A DNA stretch of 64,000 nt. Source: Bacteroidaceae bacterium. GTDB lineage: Bacteria > Bacteroidota > Bacteroidia > Bacteroidales > Bacteroidaceae. Positions 4,884 to 34,146 of this stretch are shown piece by piece. Positions within the stretch are counted from its first letter, which is position 1, and the number at the start of each line of letters is the position of its first letter. The notes beneath the pieces were generated by a model. That model had not been told where the DNA came from. It searched no databases and was given only the letters and a program-made list of their open reading frames with translations. The stretch is taken from the NCBI GenBank assembly GCA_017541025.1, contig JAFXZY010000040.1, positions 55,225-119,224 on the forward strand. Direction: 5' to 3'. The position numbers and the translations under genes are program-made.

Positions 4884-5255
4884 TTACACCCACTCATAGA
4901 TGGAGTTCTCGTACTCGGCCAACTGCGTAAGCGCAGCCTGGTCGAGCCCCTCTCCTTCCTTGTAATGCTGACGCAGGAATTCATGCAACGCAGCACGAAC
5001 CACATTCTGCTTCTCAAACTTATTACGGAATGCAATATAATCCAGTGCATTCCTGTCCTCCTCAGAAGTGAAGAACGAGAATCCCCCCACCTTCTGAATC
5101 TTACAAACCCTCTTCAGCGCCTTCGGAGCCGGAGTTTCCTGCACTATCTGTGTGCGCACTGCCTCGTTACTGGCCAGAGGAACTGGTTGTACAAAGTTTC
5201 TGCTGGCATCTTTTGCTACCTGAGCGATAGGTAAACTTCCTTTCTTAATAGCCAT
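4884..5255 (-). CDS. Small ribbon-helix-helix-like partner of ParA (putative centromere-binding protein)
   Basis: A 123-residue protein 65 bp downstream of parA on the same strand. The N-terminal half is low in order and basic (MAIKKGSLPIAQVAKDASRN). The C-terminal half has a short strand (FSFFT), a helix (SEEDRNALDYIAFRNKF), a turn (EKQN) and a second helix (VVRAALHEFLRQHY). That pattern fits ribbon-helix-helix DNA-binding proteins. Small genes next to plasmid ParA ATPases usually encode the protein that binds the partition site. One copy of the AATATTTGCA repeat lies just upstream at 5271-5287, two more lie upstream of parA, so it may bind there and regulate itself. No close family was recognised and the function is inferred from shape and position. 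Confidence 0.6.
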   Translation of the reverse strand: MAIKKGSLPIAQVAKDASRNFVQPVPLASNEAVRTQIVQETPAPKALKRVCKIQKVGGFSFFTSEEDRNALDYIAFRNKFEKQNVVRAALHEFLRQHYKEGEGLDQAALTQLAEYENSIYEWV

Positions 5256-5320: not shown

Positions 5321-6208
5321 TTATCCTTCTCTTTCTTTAATAAATTGCTGGAAGGCAGCGTTGGCTATCTGGCCCCACTTACGCGGCGTCCAGGTTTTGG
5401 GTCGAGCCTTCCTGCCTATAAGGTATTCAGCTACTCTCATATAGTCATCAGCCGCTGTACAGTCTGGACTGTATTCAAATAACGACATCTCATAAGCCAC
5501 GCTTTCGGTACACCTTACGCATTCCCTAACATAAACAGGGAAGAGGGGCGCTTTCACTTCCTCTTCGTTGCTATAATAGGCCTTCACTTCCTTACTGATT
5601 GCCTTCTGTGCATTCCATCTAACCAGCAGATAGCCCAAAATGGAAACGGGACAACGAAGCTGGGTCCGCACCTTTTCTATGTAATCCAGTAATCGGGGTA
5701 AACCTTGTAAGCTGTAGATACCCGCTTCGGTTGGAACAATTACATAATCACTTGCTACAAGAGCATTAGTGTTCATAAGTGTCTCACCTCCTGGTGCGCA
5801 ATCTATGAAGATGTAATCATACATGTTCCTGATCTTCGCACCAGACTCCGGATCTACTGTATCTAAGAAATCTCTCAGCCTGTGCTCACGATTATACATC
5901 AACTGTAACTCTGCGTTAATGTTACTCATACTGTGACTTCCGGGAACATAGTCCAGGCCATCATATCTTGTATAAATGGGAAGTGAACGCTTCTCTCCCG
6001 GCTTAAAATCGTGAAGCCAATCATAAATGGTACTTTCTGCCTCCAGATGAACCGTCTTATCTACGGTGTCGGTCATGTTACACTGAGGATCTGTATCTAC
6101 GAGCAACACTTTCTTTCCTAACAACCATAAAGCAAATCCAAGATTCACACAAGAGGTTGTTTTAGCACATCCGCCTTTGTCATGTAATAAAGAAATAACT
6201 TGTGACAT
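5321..6208 (-). CDS. parA: ParA/Soj-family partition ATPase
   Basis: A 295-residue MinD/ParA-type ATPase, which moves DNA cargo by ATP-dependent DNA binding. It has a deviant Walker A motif, KGGCAKTT at 11-18 (the usual form is KGGVGKTT, so the fifth-position Gly is Ala), then LLVDTDPQCN (Walker A') and YIFIDCAPGG (Walker B). The C-terminus is basic (GRKARPKTWTPRKWG), which suits non-specific DNA binding. There is no N-terminal HTH, as in short type Ib ParA or chromosomal Soj. It lies between the small RHH-like gene and the iteron region of the initiator gene, forming a partition-replication pair. A promoter sits at 6244-6274. A chromosomal housekeeping Soj would normally sit with spo0J/parB, which is absent here. 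Confidence 0.9.
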   Translation of the reverse strand: MSQVISLLHDKGGCAKTTSCVNLGFALWLLGKKVLLVDTDPQCNMTDTVDKTVHLEAESTIYDWLHDFKPGEKRSLPIYTRYDGLDYVPGSHSMSNINAELQLMYNREHRLRDFLDTVDPESGAKIRNMYDYIFIDCAPGGETLMNTNALVASDYVIVPTEAGIYSLQGLPRLLDYIEKVRTQLRCPVSILGYLLVRWNAQKAISKEVKAYYSNEEEVKAPLFPVYVRECVRCTESVAYEMSLFEYSPDCTAADDYMRVAEYLIGRKARPKTWTPRKWGQIANAAFQQFIKEREG

Positions 6209-6243
6209 ACGATGAAATGGGTTATAATTTTAAATTCTGCGGG

Positions 6244-6274
6244 CAAATTTAGGATTTTCTGCCGAAACCACCAA
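6244..6274 (-). promoter_or_regulatory. Putative parA promoter
   Basis: Read on the minus strand: TTGG at 6274-6271, a 19-nt spacer, then TAAATTTG at 6251-6244. About 36 nt separate the -7 element from the parA ATG. Confidence 0.5.
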
Positions 6275-6326
6275 GAAATATTCAAATATTTTGGAATATT
6301 TAGGTATAAAAACACACAAAACCCTA

Positions 6327-6399
6327 AATATTTGCACGTATTTCCGACAATAATCGGCACAAGCCCTATACTAATATTCATAAATATTTGCAGATATTC
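6327..6399 (+). repeat. Putative partition-site repeats, copies 2 and 3
   Basis: AATATTTGCACGTATTT at 6327-6343 and AATATTTGCAGATATTC at 6383-6399, 56 bp apart. Both match copy 1 at 5271. The surrounding DNA is very AT-rich. Confidence 0.45.
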
Positions 6400-6453
6400 G
6401 TATATACTCACATACATTATAATATTTATATATTCTAATACCCAAATTTGTGT

Positions 6454-6513
6454 ATATTCAGGTACGTAAAGACTTGCGTATTCATATACCCTAATATTCG
6501 GGTACGTAAAGAC
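6454..6513 (+). repeat. Pair of 20-bp direct repeats upstream of parA
   Basis: ATATTCAGGTACGTAAAGAC at 6454-6473 and ATATTCGGGTACGTAAAGAC at 6494-6513 differ by one base and are 40 bp apart. Partial copies of TATTCGGGTA follow near 6551. They could be ParA, ParB-like or Rep sites. Confidence 0.6.
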
Positions 6514-6580
6514 AAGAATATGGAGATATGTAAATATTCAAGTATAAGGGTATTCGGGTATATAAGTACGCAAATATAAA

Positions 6581-6718
6581 TGTGTTCCCTATCTTCGCAC
6601 CTAAATGCTGAAAAAGACATAAAAGGGGAGAAGTGTTCCCGTTCTCAGCACCTATTGTACTTAATGTTCCTACAATATGTTCACGATATCCACACCATGT
6701 GTTCCTGATTCTCGCACC
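6581..6718 (+). repeat. Iteron block 1: four forward copies of a ~21-bp repeat
   Basis: Core GTGTTCCCTATCTTCGCACC. Copies start at 6581, 6632, 6676 (degenerate) and 6698, each 21 bp. They share GTTC at one end and CACC at the other. The copy at 6676 contains ATATCCACA (6686-6694), one mismatch from the DnaA box TTATCCACA. This array is typical of Rep_3-type plasmid origins. Confidence 0.75.
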
Positions 6719-6885
6719 AGATGAAACGTAACAGATTATAAATCAGAAGGATAATAGGGGTATTATAAGAAAATAAAGTAATATACGGAAAAGAAAAATT
6801 AAACTTCACCGATATAAAACATATCATATTATATACATATAACTCTCGCGTAAGTGGTAGATATTCAGTTAATTAACCAAGTGTT
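6719..6885. other. AT-rich segment between opposed iteron blocks (candidate unwinding region)
   Basis: About 165 bp of strongly AT-rich DNA with no gene. It sits between iterons pointing one way (6581-6718) and iterons pointing the other way (6886-7271). This is where an origin would be expected to melt. Confidence 0.45.
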
Positions 6886-7032
6886 TTTGCGGAGAACAGG
6901 AGCACTTGGTGCGAAACTTCGGAACACTTGGTAGGGATTAAGGGGGCATCTGGTGTGAAGTTCGGGAACATAGGTGCGAAGATAGGGAACAAAATAAGGC
7001 AAACAGAAAAAGGTGCGAGAAAAGGGAACACT
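6886..7032 (-). repeat. Iteron block 2: five reverse-oriented copies
   Basis: Reverse-complement copies (core GGTGCGAAGATAGGGAACA) at 6886-6906 (degenerate), 6908-6928, 6952-6972, 6973-6993 and 7012-7032. The two at 6952 and 6973 are in perfect tandem with a 21-bp period. Confidence 0.75.
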
Positions 7033-7227
7033 TTCCCTATATATTAATAATGTATAGGAAAAGATGTAAAAGGGACTGATACAAGTAAGTAAGGCAATAG
7101 GTAAAAACAATGTAGGAAAGATCATACTGATTAAGGAAAGAAACAAAGGCATAATCATGGTATGCGTAATGGAAACAATAAGGTAACAGACTTTTCCCCA
7201 TATAGGTGAAAGAAATGTAAAGAGAAA

Positions 7228-7271
7228 GGTGACAGAATAGGAAACAACAAATTGCGAAACATCGGAACACT
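7228..7271 (-). repeat. Two degenerate iterons next to the rep promoter
   Basis: A weak copy at 7228-7248 and a good copy at 7251-7271 (TGCGAAACATCGGAACACT). The second ends 15 bp before the promoter -33 element. This placement suggests that Rep represses its own gene. Confidence 0.55.
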
Positions 7272-7285
7272 TTTTGCTCAGAAAA

Positions 7286-7317
7286 TTTGGAAGTTTCGTT
7301 GAAATGGACTATTTTTG
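7286..7317 (+). promoter_or_regulatory. Promoter of the replication initiator gene
   Basis: TTTG at 7286-7289, a 20-nt spacer, then TATTTTTG at 7310-7317. The ATG is at 7345, leaving a leader of about 20 nt. Confidence 0.7.
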
Positions 7318-7344
7318 CCCCCAAGAACTTAATTTTGGACTAAA

Positions 7345-8805
7345 ATGGCAAAGAAAAAGGGTCCCGCTATTGTAAGTAAAACCAACGAGTTGGTGCAATC
7401 CATCTCGCAAAACAATGATATAGACTTCATTATGAATCCTATCACGTACACCCAGATACGTGGTAACTTCTCGCTTGTTCAGACCAACTTGATGATAGCC
7501 ATCATTGCACAGCTACAGGATCGCATAAAGGAACAGTTAAGTTTCGACAATATGTCCACTCTTTTCAAACCGGAAGATTTGAGTGGAAATCTGCTTAACT
7601 TCGAGATTCCGCTTAAGGAGCTTGGTATCAGTCCCAAGAAGTACGGTGAGCTGGAAACGGCGTGCGAGGCATTGTTACATGTGGATATGTCATACAAGCG
7701 ATATGAAGAGAAGGAGGATACCTGGTATGATGTGAAGCAGAATATCTTCCATAAAATAGAATTCCCAACGGCAGACCTTAATGCGGAAGGTGCGAAGATG
7801 GGGTACAAAAGCGGGTTCCGCCGTAAAGGGTATATCCGCATACAGATGGTGGACGAGAGTGCCCGCGAGATTCTCAACCTCAAGAAAGGTTACACCCGCC
7901 ACCTGAAGGGAATCACCCAGTTGTGCCGCAGTCCCCGCACGCCGCGTCTGTATATTTACCTCAGCGCCTGGCGAAGGATAGGCTATTGTAATGTCAACTA
8001 TATAGACCTCAAGGAGTTCTTCGGCGTACTTACCTACAGCAAGGACCACAAGAAAATCATCGATGACCATTATCTTAAGTACGGTGCTTTCCACCGCGAT
8101 GTTCTCGATCCTGTTCAGCGCGAGATGAAGAAGCTCTCGGACGAGGGCAAGGTAGAGTTCTGCTTCGACTATGTTCCCGTCTATCCGCGTGGCGTTACCC
8201 GCGGCAACCCGGAGAGCATACGCTTCACCATCATAGAGGGTAGGATGGGGCAGGCTCAGAATTACGAAAATTACTTAGGGCAAGTCCATTCCGACCTGAT
8301 TACCAAATACCGTCTGCAACCGATGGAGTGGGCCCGCTTGCAGGAGTATATTTTCGATGGGCTGGATATGAAAGAAGAGCTGGCCAGGATCGACAAGCTC
8401 ATCGAGCAGCACCAGCCGGATAATGTACATGCCTATGTAACGGAAATCCTATATAATTGGCTCAAGAAACAGCAGAAGCCCCAGGAGCCCAAGTTCGATG
8501 TCGCCGAGGAAATATATGATGATACTCCGGAGCGGCCCTTTGTCCAGCCCGTTTACAGAGAGAAGTATGCCCGATGGATGGAGCAGGCAAGGGAAAGGCT
8601 GGGCGAAACATTCTATAAAACCTATATGATTTATTGCGATTTATGGGCCGTCCGAGACAAGACTATACTTATAGCCGTGCCAACCGACTTTGTTCGCGAA
8701 AAGTGGGAAGAGCATATAGGCGAAATCAGCAGCTACTTCTATACCGCTTTCGGAACGGATAAGGAAATACGCTATATCATACAAGACCTCTCCGTATTCA
8801 AGTAG
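7345..8805 (+). CDS. Rep_3-type replication initiator with C-terminal DnaA-domain-I-like module
   Basis: A 486-residue initiator. Residues about 30-290 have the features of Rep_3 (RepB/RepE) winged-helix initiators: an N-terminal FSLVQTNLMIAIIAQLQDRI helix, IRIQMVDESAREILNLK, the YIYLSAWRRIG segment, and RDVLDPVQREMKKLSDEG as recognition-helix region. After a Pro/Glu-rich linker (about 385-405), residues about 410-484 align by eye with DnaA domain I: RWMEQARERLGETF, then KTILIAVPTDFVREKWEEHI and IRYII, against LW..[29 protein letters not shown] and LRFEV of E. coli DnaA. In DnaA this domain self-associates and contacts DnaB helicase. Iterons upstream are the likely binding sites. Its place among core genes makes it a candidate initiator for a chromosome or chromid rather than a small plasmid. 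Confidence 0.85.
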   Translation: MAKKKGPAIVSKTNELVQSISQNNDIDFIMNPITYTQIRGNFSLVQTNLMIAIIAQLQDRIKEQLSFDNMSTLFKPEDLSGNLLNFEIPLKELGISPKKYGELETACEALLHVDMSYKRYEEKEDTWYDVKQNIFHKIEFPTADLNAEGAKMGYKSGFRRKGYIRIQMVDESAREILNLKKGYTRHLKGITQLCRSPRTPRLYIYLSAWRRIGYCNVNYIDLKEFFGVLTYSKDHKKIIDDHYLKYGAFHRDVLDPVQREMKKLSDEGKVEFCFDYVPVYPRGVTRGNPESIRFTIIEGRMGQAQNYENYLGQVHSDLITKYRLQPMEWARLQEYIFDGLDMKEELARIDKLIEQHQPDNVHAYVTEILYNWLKKQQKPQEPKFDVAEEIYDDTPERPFVQPVYREKYARWMEQARERLGETFYKTYMIYCDLWAVRDKTILIAVPTDFVREKWEEHIGEISSYFYTAFGTDKEIRYIIQDLSVFK

Positions 8806-25466: not shown

Positions 25467-27974
25467 ATGAATATATCTTATAAATGGCTCCGCGAGTACG
25501 TAGAAACAGACCTTTCGGCACAGCAAGTTGCTGATGCACTTACCAGTGCCGGTTTGGAGGTAGATGGCGTAGAGGAAGTTCAGAGTATAAAGGGAGGCTT
25601 GGATGGTCTCTGGATTGGTAAAGTCCTTACATGTGAGGCACACCCCAATAGTGACCACATGCACGTATGTACAGTAGATGTTGCTCAAGGTGAACCTTTG
25701 CAGATTGTTTGTGGTGCACCTAATGTAGCTGCAGGTCAGAAGGTTATTGTTGCCGTTGTAGGCACCAAGTTGTACGATGGTGATGAGTGCTTTACCATCA
25801 AACGCAGTAAGCTGCGTGGTGTTGAGAGTTTTGGCATGATTTGTGCTGAAGACGAGATTGGAATTGGTACAGACCATAGTGGTATTATCATTCTTCCTGA
25901 CGATGCCGTTGTAGGCACGCCAGCTGCCAAATATTACAATATAGAGAGTGATTACATTATAGAGGTTGACATCACGCCTAATCGTGCTGACGCTTGTAGC
26001 CACTATGGTGTAGCTCGCGACCTTTATGCCTGGCTTATTCAGAATGGATACAAGAGCAGTCTGAAGCGTCCATCATGCGATGACTTCAGAGTTGATGATG
26101 AATCTCTGCCCATCAACGTAGAGGTTGAGAATGCTGAGGCATGCCCTCGCTACTGCGCTGTTTCTCTTACAGGCTGCCAGGTTAAGGAGAGTCCTGAATG
26201 GTTGCAAAACAAGTTGCGTGTCATTGGCCTCCGCCCCATCAATAACATTGTTGATATTACCAACTATATCATGATGGCATACGGTCAGCCCCTTCATTGC
26301 TTTGATGCCGATATGATTCTTGGCAAGAAGGTTGTTGTAAAGACAATGCCAGAGGGCACTCCTTTCATTACACTCGATGGTGAGGAGCACAAGCTATCAG
26401 ACCGTGACCTTGCTATTTGCAATGCCCAGGAGCCCATGTGTATCGCTGGTGTATTCGGTGGTAAGGGAAGCGGAACGTATGACAGTACGGTTAATGTATT
26501 GCTGGAAAGTGCATATTTCAATCCCACATGGATTCGTAAGAGTGCACGGCGTCATGGTCTCAGCACAGATGCCAGCTTCCGTTTTGAACGTGGTATTGAC
26601 CCTAATGGACAGATATATGCCATAAAGCAGGCTGCAATCCTTGCCAAGGAACTGGCTGGTGCTAAGGTAAGCATGCAGATTGTGGATGTATATCCCAATC
26701 CCCTACCCGACTTCAACGTTTCTCTGAAATATAGCTATGTAGATGCACTTATTGGCAAACATATTCCTGAAGAAATCATTAAGAGCATTGTTACCAGCTT
26801 GGAGATGAAGATTCAGAGTGAAACTGCAGAAGGTCTTGAACTCGTTGTTCCTGCCTATCGTGTAGATGTTCAGCGTCCTTGCGACGTTGTTGAAGATATC
26901 TTGCGTATCTATGGTTACAACAATATCGAGATTCCTTCTACCCTCAAGAGTAGCCTTTCTGTAAAAGGCGACCCTGATAAGAGCCATAAACTGCAGAACC
27001 TTGTTAGTGAGCAGTTGGTAGGTGCCGGTTTCCGCGAGATTCTGAACAACAGCTTGCAGCGTGGTGCATATTACGATGGCTTGGAGAGCTATAAAAGCGA
27101 GAATCTTGTTAAGTTGCTGAATCCACTTAGCCAAGACCTGAATTCACTGCGTCAGACCTTACTCTTTGGCGGTTTGGAGAGCATCGCTCGTAATACAAAC
27201 TATAGAAATGCCAACCTTAAGTTCTTTGAGTTTGGTAACTGCTATAAGTTCCAGGCTGAGAAGCGTTGTGCCGAAATCATCCCCGGTGTTAGCAGCAGTC
27301 GTGATCCTGAGGTTATCAAGCACGTTCTGGATGCTTATTCCGAGGATTATCATCTTGGCCTTTGGGTTACAGGTAAACGTGTTACAGGCAGTTGGGCTCA
27401 TGCAGATGAGGACAGCTCATTCTATGAACTAAAGGCATACGTTATGAACATTATCAGTCGTCTGGGTGTTCCCTTTGGTTTACTTGTCTTTGCACAAGGA
27501 ACGTCTGACATATACGATAAGAGTATTCTGGTTCAGAACCGTGGCGGAAAGGTACTCATAGAGATGGGTATTGTCAGCCATAAGATTCTTAAGAACTTTG
27601 GCATCTCTGCACCTGTTTATTTTGCTGACCTGCGTTGGAAGCAACTCATGAAAACCATCAAGAATCATGCAGTTACCTACACAGAAATCAGTAAGTTCCC
27701 TGCTGTAAGTCGTGATTTGGCTTTATTGATTGACGAGAGCATAGAGTTTGAGCAGATCGAGAAGGTTGCATATCAGACTGAGAAGAAGCTCTTAAAGGCT
27801 GTTAAACTCTTTGATGTTTACGAGGGTGATAAACTGCCCGATGGTAAGAAGTCATACGCTGTTAACTTTATCCTTCAGGATAATGAAAAGACACTGAACG
27901 ACAAGCAGATTGATACCATCATGCAAAAACTTATCACCAACCTTACCACTCAACTGAAGGCAGAGCTTAGATAA
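25467..27974 (+). CDS. pheT: Phenylalanine--tRNA ligase beta subunit
   Basis: An 835-residue beta chain of the heterotetrameric phenylalanyl-tRNA synthetase. Domain order is standard: N-terminal B1 (MNISYKWLREYVETDLSAQQ); tRNA-binding EMAP-like B2 (IGKVLTCEAHPNSDHMHVCT; IVCGAPNVAAGQKVIVAVVG); editing B3/B4 (about 210-400, GLRPINNIVDITNYIMMAYG; STDASFRFERGIDPNGQIYA); B5 (PCDVVEDILRIYGYNNIEIP); a catalytic-like fold; and the C-terminal anticodon-binding FDX-ACB domain (SKFPAVSRDLALLIDESIEF; LFDVYEGDKLPDGKKSYAVN). The partner pheS is not next to it, as in other Bacteroidetes. It is cotranscribed with yebC 41 bp downstream. Confidence 0.96.
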   Translation: MNISYKWLREYVETDLSAQQVADALTSAGLEVDGVEEVQSIKGGLDGLWIGKVLTCEAHPNSDHMHVCTVDVAQGEPLQIVCGAPNVAAGQKVIVAVVGTKLYDGDECFTIKRSKLRGVESFGMICAEDEIGIGTDHSGIIILPDDAVVGTPAAKYYNIESDYIIEVDITPNRADACSHYGVARDLYAWLIQNGYKSSLKRPSCDDFRVDDESLPINVEVENAEACPRYCAVSLTGCQVKESPEWLQNKLRVIGLRPINNIVDITNYIMMAYGQPLHCFDADMILGKKVVVKTMPEGTPFITLDGEEHKLSDRDLAICNAQEPMCIAGVFGGKGSGTYDSTVNVLLESAYFNPTWIRKSARRHGLSTDASFRFERGIDPNGQIYAIKQAAILAKELAGAKVSMQIVDVYPNPLPDFNVSLKYSYVDALIGKHIPEEIIKSIVTSLEMKIQSETAEGLELVVPAYRVDVQRPCDVVEDILRIYGYNNIEIPSTLKSSLSVKGDPDKSHKLQNLVSEQLVGAGFREILNNSLQRGAYYDGLESYKSENLVKLLNPLSQDLNSLRQTLLFGGLESIARNTNYRNANLKFFEFGNCYKFQAEKRCAEIIPGVSSSRDPEVIKHVLDAYSEDYHLGLWVTGKRVTGSWAHADEDSSFYELKAYVMNIISRLGVPFGLLVFAQGTSDIYDKSILVQNRGGKVLIEMGIVSHKILKNFGISAPVYFADLRWKQLMKTIKNHAVTYTEISKFPAVSRDLALLIDESIEFEQIEKVAYQTEKKLLKAVKLFDVYEGDKLPDGKKSYAVNFILQDNEKTLNDKQIDTIMQKLITNLTTQLKAELR

Positions 27975-28887: not shown

Positions 28888-30435
28888 TTATGTTGATAAA
28901 TTCTCTGCCGAAAGTCCCGCAAACGGGTCATCGTCTTTTGGCAGCTGACTCTGAGCCTTGGCCAATTCTTCTGGGCTCAACTTATCGGCTACAAAGCGGC
29001 CACCCATATCACTGATCTTCTCTCCAGGCAATGGAATGTGCGACTCTAAATCTTCAAAACGAGCAAACTCACTCTTAAACTGCAACTTAATATCCCCTAC
29101 CTGGCCATTACGGTGCTTGGCGATAATAAACTGAGCAAGACCTTTCCAGCTTTGTCCGGATTGGTCAGTATAAATGTGGTAGTATTCTGGTCGGTGAATA
29201 AAGCAAACAATATCAGCATCCTGCTCAATGGCACCAGACTCACGCAAGTCGCTAAGCTGCGGACGCTTTCCTTCCTCACCCTCACGGTTCTCTACTCCAC
29301 GGTTCAACTGGCTCAATGCTATAATTGGGATGTTCAATTCCTTGGCCAAACCCTTCAGAGAGCGACTTATGGTTGAAACCTCCTCTTGTCGGCTATTGAT
29401 GTTCAGACCGCTAGCATGCATCAGTTGCAGGTAGTCAATCATAATTACCTTAACGTCATGCTCACGAACCAGTCGGCGAGCCTTTGTCTGTAACTCAAAA
29501 ACTGTAAGCTGAGGGGTATCGTCCACATAGATAGGTGCATCATAGAGTTGACGAACACGAGCATCTAACTGACCCCATTCGTATGGTTGCAACTGAGCGC
29601 TACGCAACTTCTCACCACTTATTTCACTCACATTTACCATTAAACGCTGTACCAACTGCTCGTTGCTCATCTCCAGCGAGAACATAGCCACAGGTACGCC
29701 ATTGTCCACAGCCATCTTCTTGAGCATACTTAACACGAAGGCCGTTTTACCCATAGCTGGACGTGCAGCAATGATAATCAAGTCGCTATTCTGCCATCCA
29801 CTAGTCATCTTATCAAGCTCCTCGAAACCAGAACTTAGACCACTTAAACCACCTTCACGTGCAGCAGCCTTCTTGAGCAACTCATAAACATTATTTATAA
29901 TAGGATTAATCTGAGTATAATCCTTCTTTCGATTAGTCTGAGATATGGCAAATAGTTGACTTTCAGCCGTTTGCATAAGGTCTGCTACATCAATGGTAGA
30001 ATCAAAGGCCTGCGTCTGAATATAGCTTGCAAATGTAATTAGTTGGCGAGCAATAGACTTTTGGGCAATTACTTTGGCATGATAAAGAATGTGAGCACTA
30101 CTGGCAACTTCAGCATTAATCTGCATCAGGTAAGTATTACCTCCTGCATCTTCAAGCAGTCCTGTACGCTCCAACTGATCGCAGACGGTCATAATATCAA
30201 CAGGCTTCTGTTCAACATTCAGTGTCTGGATTGCCTGATAGATTATCTGATGGCGTTTATCATAGAAACTCTCGGGTTTCAGAATCTCAGCCACTTGCCC
30301 CCATGCATCCTGTTCAACCATCAGTGCGCCAATCACAGCCACCTCCATATCCAGACTCTGTGGTTGCTTATGTCCGTATTGGTCCACACTGGGCACCTCC
30401 ACAATTTTAGTTGTCTGCTTCCTTCTCTCAGCCAT
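28888..30435 (-). CDS. dnaB: Replicative DNA helicase DnaB
   Basis: A 515-residue hexameric 5'-3' helicase of the replication fork. The N-terminal domain (about 25-130, LDMEVAVIGALMVEQDAWGQ; ILYHAKVIAQKSIARQLI) is the primase and loader contact region. The RecA-like C-terminal ATPase has LIIIAARPAMGKTAFVLSML (Walker A), KVIMIDYLQLMHASG (Walker B), IIALSQLNRGVENREG and QLSDLRESGAIEQDADIVCF. There is no intein. It is preceded by a near-perfect promoter. The nearby Rep initiator carries a DnaA-domain-I-like module, and DnaB would be its expected partner, although the genes are 20 kb apart. Confidence 0.97.
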   Translation of the reverse strand: MAERRKQTTKIVEVPSVDQYGHKQPQSLDMEVAVIGALMVEQDAWGQVAEILKPESFYDKRHQIIYQAIQTLNVEQKPVDIMTVCDQLERTGLLEDAGGNTYLMQINAEVASSAHILYHAKVIAQKSIARQLITFASYIQTQAFDSTIDVADLMQTAESQLFAISQTNRKKDYTQINPIINNVYELLKKAAAREGGLSGLSSGFEELDKMTSGWQNSDLIIIAARPAMGKTAFVLSMLKKMAVDNGVPVAMFSLEMSNEQLVQRLMVNVSEISGEKLRSAQLQPYEWGQLDARVRQLYDAPIYVDDTPQLTVFELQTKARRLVREHDVKVIMIDYLQLMHASGLNINSRQEEVSTISRSLKGLAKELNIPIIALSQLNRGVENREGEEGKRPQLSDLRESGAIEQDADIVCFIHRPEYYHIYTDQSGQSWKGLAQFIIAKHRNGQVGDIKLQFKSEFARFEDLESHIPLPGEKISDMGGRFVADKLSPEELAKAQSQLPKDDDPFAGLSAENLST

Positions 30436-32235: not shown

Positions 32236-34146
32236 TTACTTCACCTCCTCGAAGTCGGCATCCTGGATGTCGGGACCGGATTGCTGGCCACCCTGAGGAC
32301 CAGCCTGCTGACCGCCTTGGAAACCTGCACCGGCACCGGGCTGTGCACCAGCCTGCTGAGCAGCCTGATACATCTTCTGGGCAGCATTGTTCAGCTCTGC
32401 TGTTGCAGCATCGATGGCAGCAATGTCCTGAGCCTTGTGAGCATCCTTCAGTTTGTTCAGGGCAGCTTCTACCTCAGACTTAACGTCAGCAGAAAGCTTG
32501 TCGCCGCTCTCCTTCAGCATGTTCTCTGTCTGGAAAATCATACTGTCAGCCTGATTCAACTTGTCAATCTTCTCACGTTCCTTCTTATCGCTTTCGGCAT
32601 TAGCCTCAGCCTCAGCCTTCATGCGTTCTATTTCCTCTTTAGAGAGGCCTGAGCTTGCCTCAATACGGATAGCCTGCTCCTTGCCGGTAGCCTTATCCTT
32701 AGCACTCACCTTCAGGATACCGTTGGCATCGATATCGAAGCTTACCTCGATCTGAGGAACGCCACGACGTGCGGGAGCGATACCTTCCAGGTTGAACTGA
32801 CCGACACTCTTGTTCTGGCTGGCCATAGGACGTTCGCCCTGCAGTACATGGATGGTAACGGCTGTCTGGTTATCAGCAGCGGTAGAGAATACTTCGCTCT
32901 TATGGCAAGGGATGGTTGTGTTGGCATCAATCAGTTTGGTCATTACACCACCCATTGTCTCGATACCCATAGACAGAGGAGTTACGTCGAGCAATACGAT
33001 GTCGCTCTTGTCACCTGCCAATACGGCACCTTGGATTGAAGCACCTACGGCAACCACCTCATCAGGGTTAACACCCTTGCTGGGCTCTTTACCGAAGAAG
33101 TCGGCAACCAACTTCTGAACGGCAGGAATACGGCTTGAACCACCTACCAGGATTACCTCGTCGATATCGCTGTTGCTCAGACCTGCATCCTGCATAGCCT
33201 TCTGGCAGGGAACCTTACAAGCTTGAATTAATCCGTCGGCCAACTGCTCGAACTTAGCACGAGTCAGGGTCTTAACCAAGTGCTTGGGCACACCGCCTAC
33301 AGCAGTGATGTAGGGCAGGTTGATTTCAGTGGTAGTAGAGCTTGACAACTCTATCTTAGCCTTCTCGGCAGCTTCCTTCAGACGCTGCAATGCCATAGGA
33401 TCCTGCTTCAGGTCGATTCCTTCCTCGCTCTTGAACTCGCTGGCCATCCAGTCGATGATAACCTGGTCGAAGTCGTCACCACCCAGGTGAGTATCACCAT
33501 TGGTTGAGAGCACTTCAAACACACCGCTACCGAACTCCAGGATAGAGATATCGAATGTACCGCCACCCAAATCGAATACGGCAATCTTCATGTCCTTGTT
33601 GGCCTTGTCAACACCGTATGCCAAGGCTGCTGCTGTTGGTTCGTTCACGATACGCTTAACATCCAGGCCGGCAATCTGACCAGCCTCCTTGGTAGCCTGA
33701 CGCTGAGAGTCGGAGAAGTAGGCAGGAACGGTGATAACTGCCTCTGTAACTTCCTGTCCCAGATAATCCTCGGCTGTCTTCTTCATCTTCTGAAGTATCA
33801 TAGCGCTGATTTCCTGAGGCGTATATTGACGTCCGTCGATGTCAACACGTGGAGTGTTGTTGTCACCACGTACAACTGTATAGGGTACACGTGCAATCTC
33901 CTTCTGCACCTGATCGTATGTCTCACCCATAAAACGCTTGATACTGAAGATAGTCTTCTTAGGATTTGTGATAGCCTGACGCTTGGCAGGATCACCCACC
34001 TTACGCTCGCCACCATCTACGAATGCAACAATAGAGGGTGTTGTACGCTTGCCCTCGCTGTTGGCAATAACTGTGGGCTCGTTGCCCTCGAAAACGGATA
34101 CACAACTGTTAGTGGTACCCAAGTCAATTCCAATAATCTTTCCCAT
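32236..34146 (-). CDS. dnaK: Chaperone DnaK (Hsp70)
   Basis: A 636-residue Hsp70. The nucleotide-binding domain opens with [19 protein letters not shown] and has [39 protein letters not shown] and [20 protein letters not shown]. The substrate-binding domain contains [20 protein letters not shown] and the helical lid. The C-terminus is Gly/Gln/Ala-rich (AGQPGAGAG-like [20 protein letters not shown]) and ends DADFEEVK, close to the EEVD-like ending of bacterial DnaK. It is a single gene without grpE or dnaJ next to it. No CIRCE inverted repeat was found upstream. The upstream spacer (34147-34293) holds a CCTCCGGGGAGG repeat. Confidence 0.98.

Follow-up and report, generated by a model that had tools for sequence, protein, structure and literature searches.

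Initiators of the Rep_3 type (RepB, RepE and pi) are iteron initiators, and to recruit the helicase they usually depend on DnaA and/or further contacts. Domain I of DnaA is described as an interaction hub that is believed to serve mainly in recruiting the helicase, directly in E. coli and via DnaD in B. subtilis, through the same surface (PMC10201431). According to that study, B. subtilis DnaA no longer recruits DnaD when it carries the substitution W27A or F49A. E21 and F46 are reported to map the DnaB contact in E. coli (PMC13270200), and a 2017 review describes domain I–helicase binding as shown only for E. coli (PMC5448010).

Two other described systems are close to the one studied here. 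The RepA_N initiator of pSK41 is a plasmid protein with domains that resemble the host primosome protein DnaD; it is reported to contact DnaG directly and possibly to aid in helicase loading (PMC5703833). In Prevotella, Rep_3 genes lie on replicons of 0.57-0.87 Mb that carry core genes (PMC4755523; NZ_CP082843). For the second chromosome of P. intermedia, the authors note the Rep_3 gene, report no iterons or maintenance genes near it and leave the origin unknown (PMC4755523). In the 568-kb P. nigrescens record (NZ_CP082843), smpB and mutS2 adjoin rep.

Here we analyze a rep gene in a 64,000-nucleotide stretch of a Bacteroidaceae contig, referred to as the window. Like the known Rep_3 iteron initiators, the window Rep has a Rep3_N domain above the Pfam cut-off, iterons beside its gene and par genes nearby. 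Unlike them, it adds a C-terminal DnaA domain I. This domain is homologous to DnaA domain I (PF11638, DnaA_N) over nearly the whole domain and has the same aromatic residues on the helicase- or loader-binding face, but it forms the C-terminal part of a protein that has neither AAA+ nor DnaA domain IV, and the residue corresponding to E. coli E21 is mostly lost. The RepA_N initiators also resemble a host primosome protein, but this is DnaD rather than DnaA domain I, and the families are unrelated. Compared with the Prevotella replicons, the window locus differs from P. intermedia in its iterons and par genes, and from P. nigrescens in its tail. The P. nigrescens Rep (388 aa) is a relative without the DnaA tail on a 568-kb replicon, so DnaA domain I is not required for such replicons.

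Architecture of the initiator

The rep gene (7345..8805, + strand) encodes a protein of 486 aa that comprises Rep_3 winged helices, a middle region, an acidic linker and a DnaA domain I. The initial annotation had read the N-terminal side as a Rep_3 initiator, and Pfam agrees: Rep3_N (WH1, PF01051) covers residues 36-206 (7450..7962, +) with an E value of 7e-8 and 33.4 bits against a cut-off of 22.4. A second, Rep3_C-like winged helix (WH2, PF21205) at residues 240-296 (8062..8232, +) scores 14.2 bits, under the cut-off of 21.1; across the family alignment A2, 24 of 33 members match PF21205 at E<=0.01 (best 1.3e-4). The alignment delimits a middle region at about residues 300-385 (8242..8499, +), which is missing in the type B paralogues (L030 and L031, roughly 395 aa), both of which have the tail. 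An acidic, proline-containing linker follows at about residues 386-405 (8500..8559, +) and leads into the C-terminal DnaA domain I, placed by profile comparisons at about residues 406-482 (8560..8790, +).

No AAA+ domain or DnaA domain IV was matched in the window Rep by Pfam at E<=1, and the genome encodes a separate DnaA of 472 aa (L001). The best PDB match other than DnaA was the R6K pi protein, at a non-significant E value of 0.04. Judged by WH1 and the iterons, the window Rep is a member of Rep_3 and not a DnaA.

The tail is homologous to DnaA domain I

Taken singly, the window sequence is only suggestive of kinship with DnaA. DnaA_N matches residues 412-457 of the whole protein with an E value of 0.0079 and 16.3 bits, and the tail segment by itself with 18.4 bits, both under the cut-off of 24.6. 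The NCBIfam DnaA model matches residues 410-480 (E 9e-4), and in a phmmer search of the PDB the DnaA structure 4tps reached only E 0.71, ranked after three unrelated esterases. The tail of a paralogue on contig C79 of the same genome is above the DnaA_N cut-off, with 30.8 bits.

The family profile carries the homology. We aligned the tails of the window Rep and 32 other loci (A3, 33 tails), excluding nine near-duplicates, L058 and L074. DnaA_N matches 31 of the 33 tails at E<=0.01 (best 1.1e-12). A search of all PDB sequences with the A3 profile placed four DnaA domain I structures first, with matches near full profile length (4tps 1.4e-8, 8btg 2.2e-7, 2z4r 5e-4 and 2e0g 2.3e-3). The same profile matches 31/31 DnaA proteins of the phylum at 32-47 bits, many of these DnaAs being close kin of one another. 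Comparison of the tails with DnaA domain I by hhalign gave 98.4% over 82 columns. Together these results place the kinship far beyond chance, and we regard the homology of the Rep tail to DnaA domain I as secure at the level of sequence profiles. The union of a Rep_3 region with a C-terminal DnaA domain I, and its match along the whole of that domain, had been proposed by eye in the initial annotation; the union is borne out, and the match extends over nearly the whole domain.

The full-length Rep profile (A2) likewise reaches the host DnaA via the tail segment (E 9e-11), as it does many DnaA-sized frames in genomes of the family. A further Rep group (L154-L156 and L168) gave 98.7% against DnaA domain I in hhalign. 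Two weaker groups are closer to the tails than to DnaA: L170-L172 (94.5% vs tails, 73.8% vs DnaA domain I) and L157-L162 (81.6% vs tails, 4.2% vs DnaA domain I). The ends of tail-less Reps, used as a control, gave 0.1% against DnaA.

Distribution of the tail among Rep_3 proteins

A scan of 84,980 species genomes with a pattern from the 8-member alignment A1 returned 41 loci. By title these are MAGs of Bacteroidaceae, Prevotellaceae or Bacteroidales, with ruminants as a frequent source; the exception is a 3.3-kb contig titled Clostridia (L066). The tail was recognized by eye in 39/41 loci, a fraction biased by the fact that all seed sequences carried tails; of the other two, L058 is cut at the contig end and L074 has no tail. 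Relatives with 70-98% identity to the window Rep occur in many genomes, the 98%-identical one in a goat reticulum MAG, which suggests that the host is an uncultured member of the Bacteroidaceae/Prevotellaceae. Among 61 genomes from the genus and order, 13 hold a whole-Rep relative, in some cases a weak one only. Among 30 Rep loci from the family search, the tail matched at E<=1e-3 in 15, more weakly in 8 and not at all in 7; these are the best-scoring loci and thus a non-random sample.

Two further loci came from IMG/VR contigs of 67.7 and 41.6 kb (L080 and L081), which encode a related Rep–DnaA domain I protein with 31% identity. Although filed as viral, these contigs may be plasmids rather than viruses. 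The phage search gave no match, and comparison of the tails with PHROGs gave isolated weak matches only, of one member each.

The initial annotation had raised the possibility that the tail is a standard part of all Rep_3 proteins. This is not what we found: none of eight Reps from named plasmids, among them B. fragilis pBF9343 and the 568-kb P. nigrescens replicon, matches the tail significantly, and L013 and L074 are Reps without the tail. Since these plasmid Reps lack a match and the DnaX (see below) and tail-less controls were low, the tail is DnaA-specific and does not belong to Rep_3 proteins in general.

We also noted alternative endings. The tail-less L013 and L074 lie on separate branches of the tree and have in common a different ending (YMADLQAAMDGDEAKRLEYPNWE / YVADLKAAWEGDELKRKQYPNWE); it looks as though a different C-terminal module substitutes for DnaA domain I. 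Three Segatella plasmid Reps (L113-L115) end in a W..F.. segment of comparable arrangement, perhaps a domain I in decay; in profile comparison these ends gave 12.0% against the tails and 0.8% against DnaA. Separately, several Bacteroidota genomes (L132-L141; families f53, f59 and f68) contain two frames of ~500-590 aa (one of 728) that both match DnaA_N and may include second copies of DnaA.

A tree of the Rep_3 region was built from 65 rows (42 with tail, 8 weak, 15 none); it is a quick tree with several long branches and little support for the deepest forks. Tail state required four changes on it, whether the weak class was pooled with the tails or omitted, and as a three-group state it required six, against 21.1 for shuffled labels. 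By this tree, the tail is an old feature of the clade, with probable loss or decay. We found no description of a Rep_3 and DnaA domain I combination in the open-access papers searched; most subscription papers and bioRxiv lay outside this coverage.

parA, the intergenic gap and its iterons

Divergent from rep lies parA (5321..6208, -), which encodes a 295-aa protein matching Pfam AAA_31 (5e-40) and the ParA-like PHROG 164 (2e-52). A ParA homologue is present in all ten rep loci compared (10/10), and the remaining flanks are mostly unlike one another. The adjacent 123-aa protein (4884..5255, -) is a presumed ParA partner that looks ribbon-helix-helix-like by eye; its matches are at chance level only (Pfam 0.15, PHROG repressor 0.027), none was found in NCBIfam, and a homologous ORF occurs in 4 of the 10 loci (64-71%).

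The gap between parA and rep (6209..7344), a putative origin, is ~1.1 kb without a convincing gene and contains inverted iteron arrays. Eight sites of a 19-bp iteron form two facing arms. The left arm (6583-6718, -) holds GGTGCGAAGATAGGGAACA at 6583..6601, a perfect inverted copy of 6973-6991, followed by sites at 6634..6652 (3 mismatches), 6678..6696 (3 mismatches, overlapping a one-mismatch DnaA box at 6686-6694) and 6700..6718 (2 mismatches), all on the - strand. The right arm (6908-7030, +) consists of 6908..6926 and 6952..6970 (1 mismatch each), 6973..6991 (exact) and 7012..7030 (2 mismatches), all on the + strand.

With up to 3 mismatches the iteron occurs 11 times in the window, ten of them within 5824-7807, against a mean of 0.41 and a maximum of 2 in shuffles, a count flattered by the derivation of the pattern from the same region. 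Genome-wide there are nine matches with <=2 mismatches, eight of them inside the rep cassette, and a reversed control pattern gave 2. Comparable arrays are found at the same place in 6/6 close relatives. One-mismatch copies also lie inside the genes, in parA (5824-5842, -) and in rep (7789-7807, +); the former is kept in 6/6 relatives and the latter in 3/6.

GC skew at the rep cassette

Cumulative GC skew was computed for 14 rep-bearing contigs of 52-248 kb, a selection of such contigs, with the position of the gap taken as 600 bp upstream of rep. The contigs were added in two rounds, with the skew minimum within 2 kb of the gap in 7/9 and, after five more, in 9/14. In these nine the distances are 0.03 kb (G503C47), 0.07 kb (G503C69), 0.5 kb (G413C40), 0.6 kb (G448C77), 0.7 kb (G008C29), 0.8 kb (G012C3), 1.1 kb (G489C2), 1.2 kb (G544C9) and 1.4 kb (G024C1). 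The dip beats block permutation in eight of the nine (P<=0.012), the exception being G544C9 (P 0.58). G024C1 and G012C3 are about 90% alike across 116 kb and so are not fully independent. In the other 5/14 the minimum lies further off: G517C22 (2.5 kb), G032C16 (4.4 kb), G407C4 (11 kb), and the two rep contigs of the window genome, C66 and C79, whose minima are distant and which both lack a skew minimum at rep.

Because the minimum falls within 2 kb in 9/14 contigs, the rep/parA gap probably marks a bidirectional origin of large secondary replicons. Both paralogue types occur in genome G503, where they lie at separate skew minima; this genome appears to contain two such replicons, each with its own Rep–DnaA domain I protein. 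The contigs G024C1 and G012C3, which have V-shaped skew, carry dnaK plus 4 and 7 tRNA genes, respectively, a gene content that points to chromids or second chromosomes. Of the overall reading we began with, the architecture and its family in Bacteroidales stood; the role as initiator of a large replicon is only probable, on the strength of these skew minima.

Conserved residues of the tail

Several tail positions are conserved where DnaA domain I contacts its partners. By the 4tps alignment, window position 427 corresponds to B. subtilis W27 and is Y, F or W in 33/33 tails, and position 449 corresponds to F49 and is F or Y in 33/33. P446 and V450 are invariant in the 33 tails. We take B. subtilis F49 to be E. 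coli F46, the DnaB contact. The position that we assume to be equivalent to E. coli E21 is F in 28/33 tails and E in only 3/33; in the DnaA of the host, inspection by eye gives Q at this site. Position 408, taken as the E. coli Trp6 equivalent, is aromatic in 33/33 (27 W, 5 Y and 1 F).

A candidate route for helicase recruitment and its alternatives

The match between the tail aromatics and DnaA residues needed for recruiting helicase or its loader is one reason we propose such a role for Rep. We infer, with moderate confidence, that rep is the initiator of a large, low-copy, chromid-like secondary replicon and that it recruits helicase via its own DnaA domain I. In this scheme, iteron binding and DNA opening would fall to the winged helices. 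The tail, on its flexible acidic linker, would present the face of DnaA domain I that contacts the replicative helicase or its loader. Rep itself would thereby bring the helicase to the origin, instead of DnaA on DnaA boxes, and forks would depart both ways. Speaking against this scheme are the rarity of E at the E21 position, the view of the 2017 review cited above, the contigs with a skew minimum beyond 2 kb and the tail-less P. nigrescens Rep on a replicon of the same kind.

Alternatively, the tail could pair Rep with the host DnaA (domain I to domain I) or with DnaA regulators, and the replicon would then fire in step with the chromosome and obtain its helicase via DnaA. E. coli domain I is described as also self-associating through a patch that includes Trp6 (PMC5448010), and the corresponding position 408 is aromatic in every tail. 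The host's own DnaA is also the top scorer of the 31 with the tail profile, though barely (47.0 vs 46.6 bits). Against this, the W6 position may be structural, as no protection of helix 1 is reported for E. coli domain I (PMC13270200), and no DnaA is obviously bound at these origins, where DnaA boxes are not in excess. Upstream of 33 reps we counted 15 boxes with <=1 mismatch against 13.4 expected, and 1 exact box against 0.45. For the tail-less Reps, 16 regions upstream contain 4 boxes (<=1 mismatch), which does not clearly set them apart from the tailed group. A clustered-box search found box pairs in 4 of 7 family genomes but none in the window genome, whose dnaA neighborhood has no box cluster either, which leaves the box count here without a positive control. 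The missing excess in the 33 upstream regions is compatible with DnaA independence but is no proof of it. We consider pairing with DnaA unlikely.

Still less likely, in our view, is that the tail, though built on the DnaA domain I fold, takes no part in recruiting helicase and serves Rep self-association or regulation (origin pairing or handcuffing, copy control). In favor of this, Rep pairing matters at origins of the type that has inverted iteron arrays. In Actinomycetes, domain I is reported to dimerize via helix 3, beta 3 and an F49-containing cluster (PMC13270200), a surface overlapping the conserved face of the tails. The conserved aromatics match helicase-recruitment positions and so speak for recruitment, a weak argument here because the same face can also dimerize.

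The window contig itself (C66) raises the question of whether its cassette is an ordinary plasmid remnant in the chromosome, or was joined by misassembly, with an inactive initiator. C66 has no skew minimum at rep; its gene order matches the closest long relative contig, G503C47, as far as rep, and its genes past rep were not found there. The right half of C66 may be rearranged or misjoined. However, the first 1.3-2.0 kb past rep (to 10.1-10.8 kb) are common to two other assemblies (L039 and L040), the rep ORF is intact and has its 70-98% relatives in many genomes, the iterons are kept, and the skew minimum accompanies the cassette in most contigs of the selection. We find a remnant improbable and give it little weight. 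No circular ends of C66 and no near-identical plasmids were found. GC content is 0.457 in C66, 0.460 in the dnaA region (16 kb of C61), 0.438 at the dnaX locus and 0.430 in C79, from small samples and as GC only.

The right half of C66 contains pheT (25467-27974, +), dnaB (28888-30435, -) and, on the same contig, dnaK (32236-34146, -). The dnaB and pheT genes are the sole copies found in this 84%-complete assembly; given the possible misjoin, we rest no conclusion on this half of the contig.

An origin of the tail from another KH-like replisome domain, DnaX domain V, which would touch the polymerase and not the helicase, is hardly conceivable and was rejected by profile comparison: the C-terminus of one Bacteroidota DnaX-like protein (L175, 604 aa, contig C68 of G231, named by eye) scores 24.5 bits against DnaA_N, but the tails gave only 15.6% against the DnaX C-termini of 29 loci in hhalign, compared with 98.4% for DnaA domain I. 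The L175 C-terminus lies about at the DnaA_N cut-off (24.8 bits with its neighbors), which fits a distant kinship between DnaX domain V and DnaA domain I.

Implications

Helicase recruitment by the Rep tail thus remains the reading we prefer. More tentatively, we suggest that the helicase-recruiting domain of DnaA could have moved onto a plasmid-type initiator in Bacteroidales, where it would drive DnaA-independent, bidirectional initiation of second chromosomes or chromids with essential genes; we rate this broader proposal as possible rather than probable.

To our knowledge, little is known beyond a few model plasmids about how plasmid-type initiators of chromids deliver the helicase. In this family the protein itself may hold the answer: an initiator unrelated to DnaA carries DnaA's recruiting domain, at the opposite end. 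The Rep–DnaA domain I proteins offer a natural setting for asking whether this domain by itself suffices as a helicase-recruiting module, and the tail offers a route to finding which helicase or loader DnaA partners with in Bacteroidota. The rep loci also provide candidate origins, with iterons and skew minima, for the large secondary replicons of the family.
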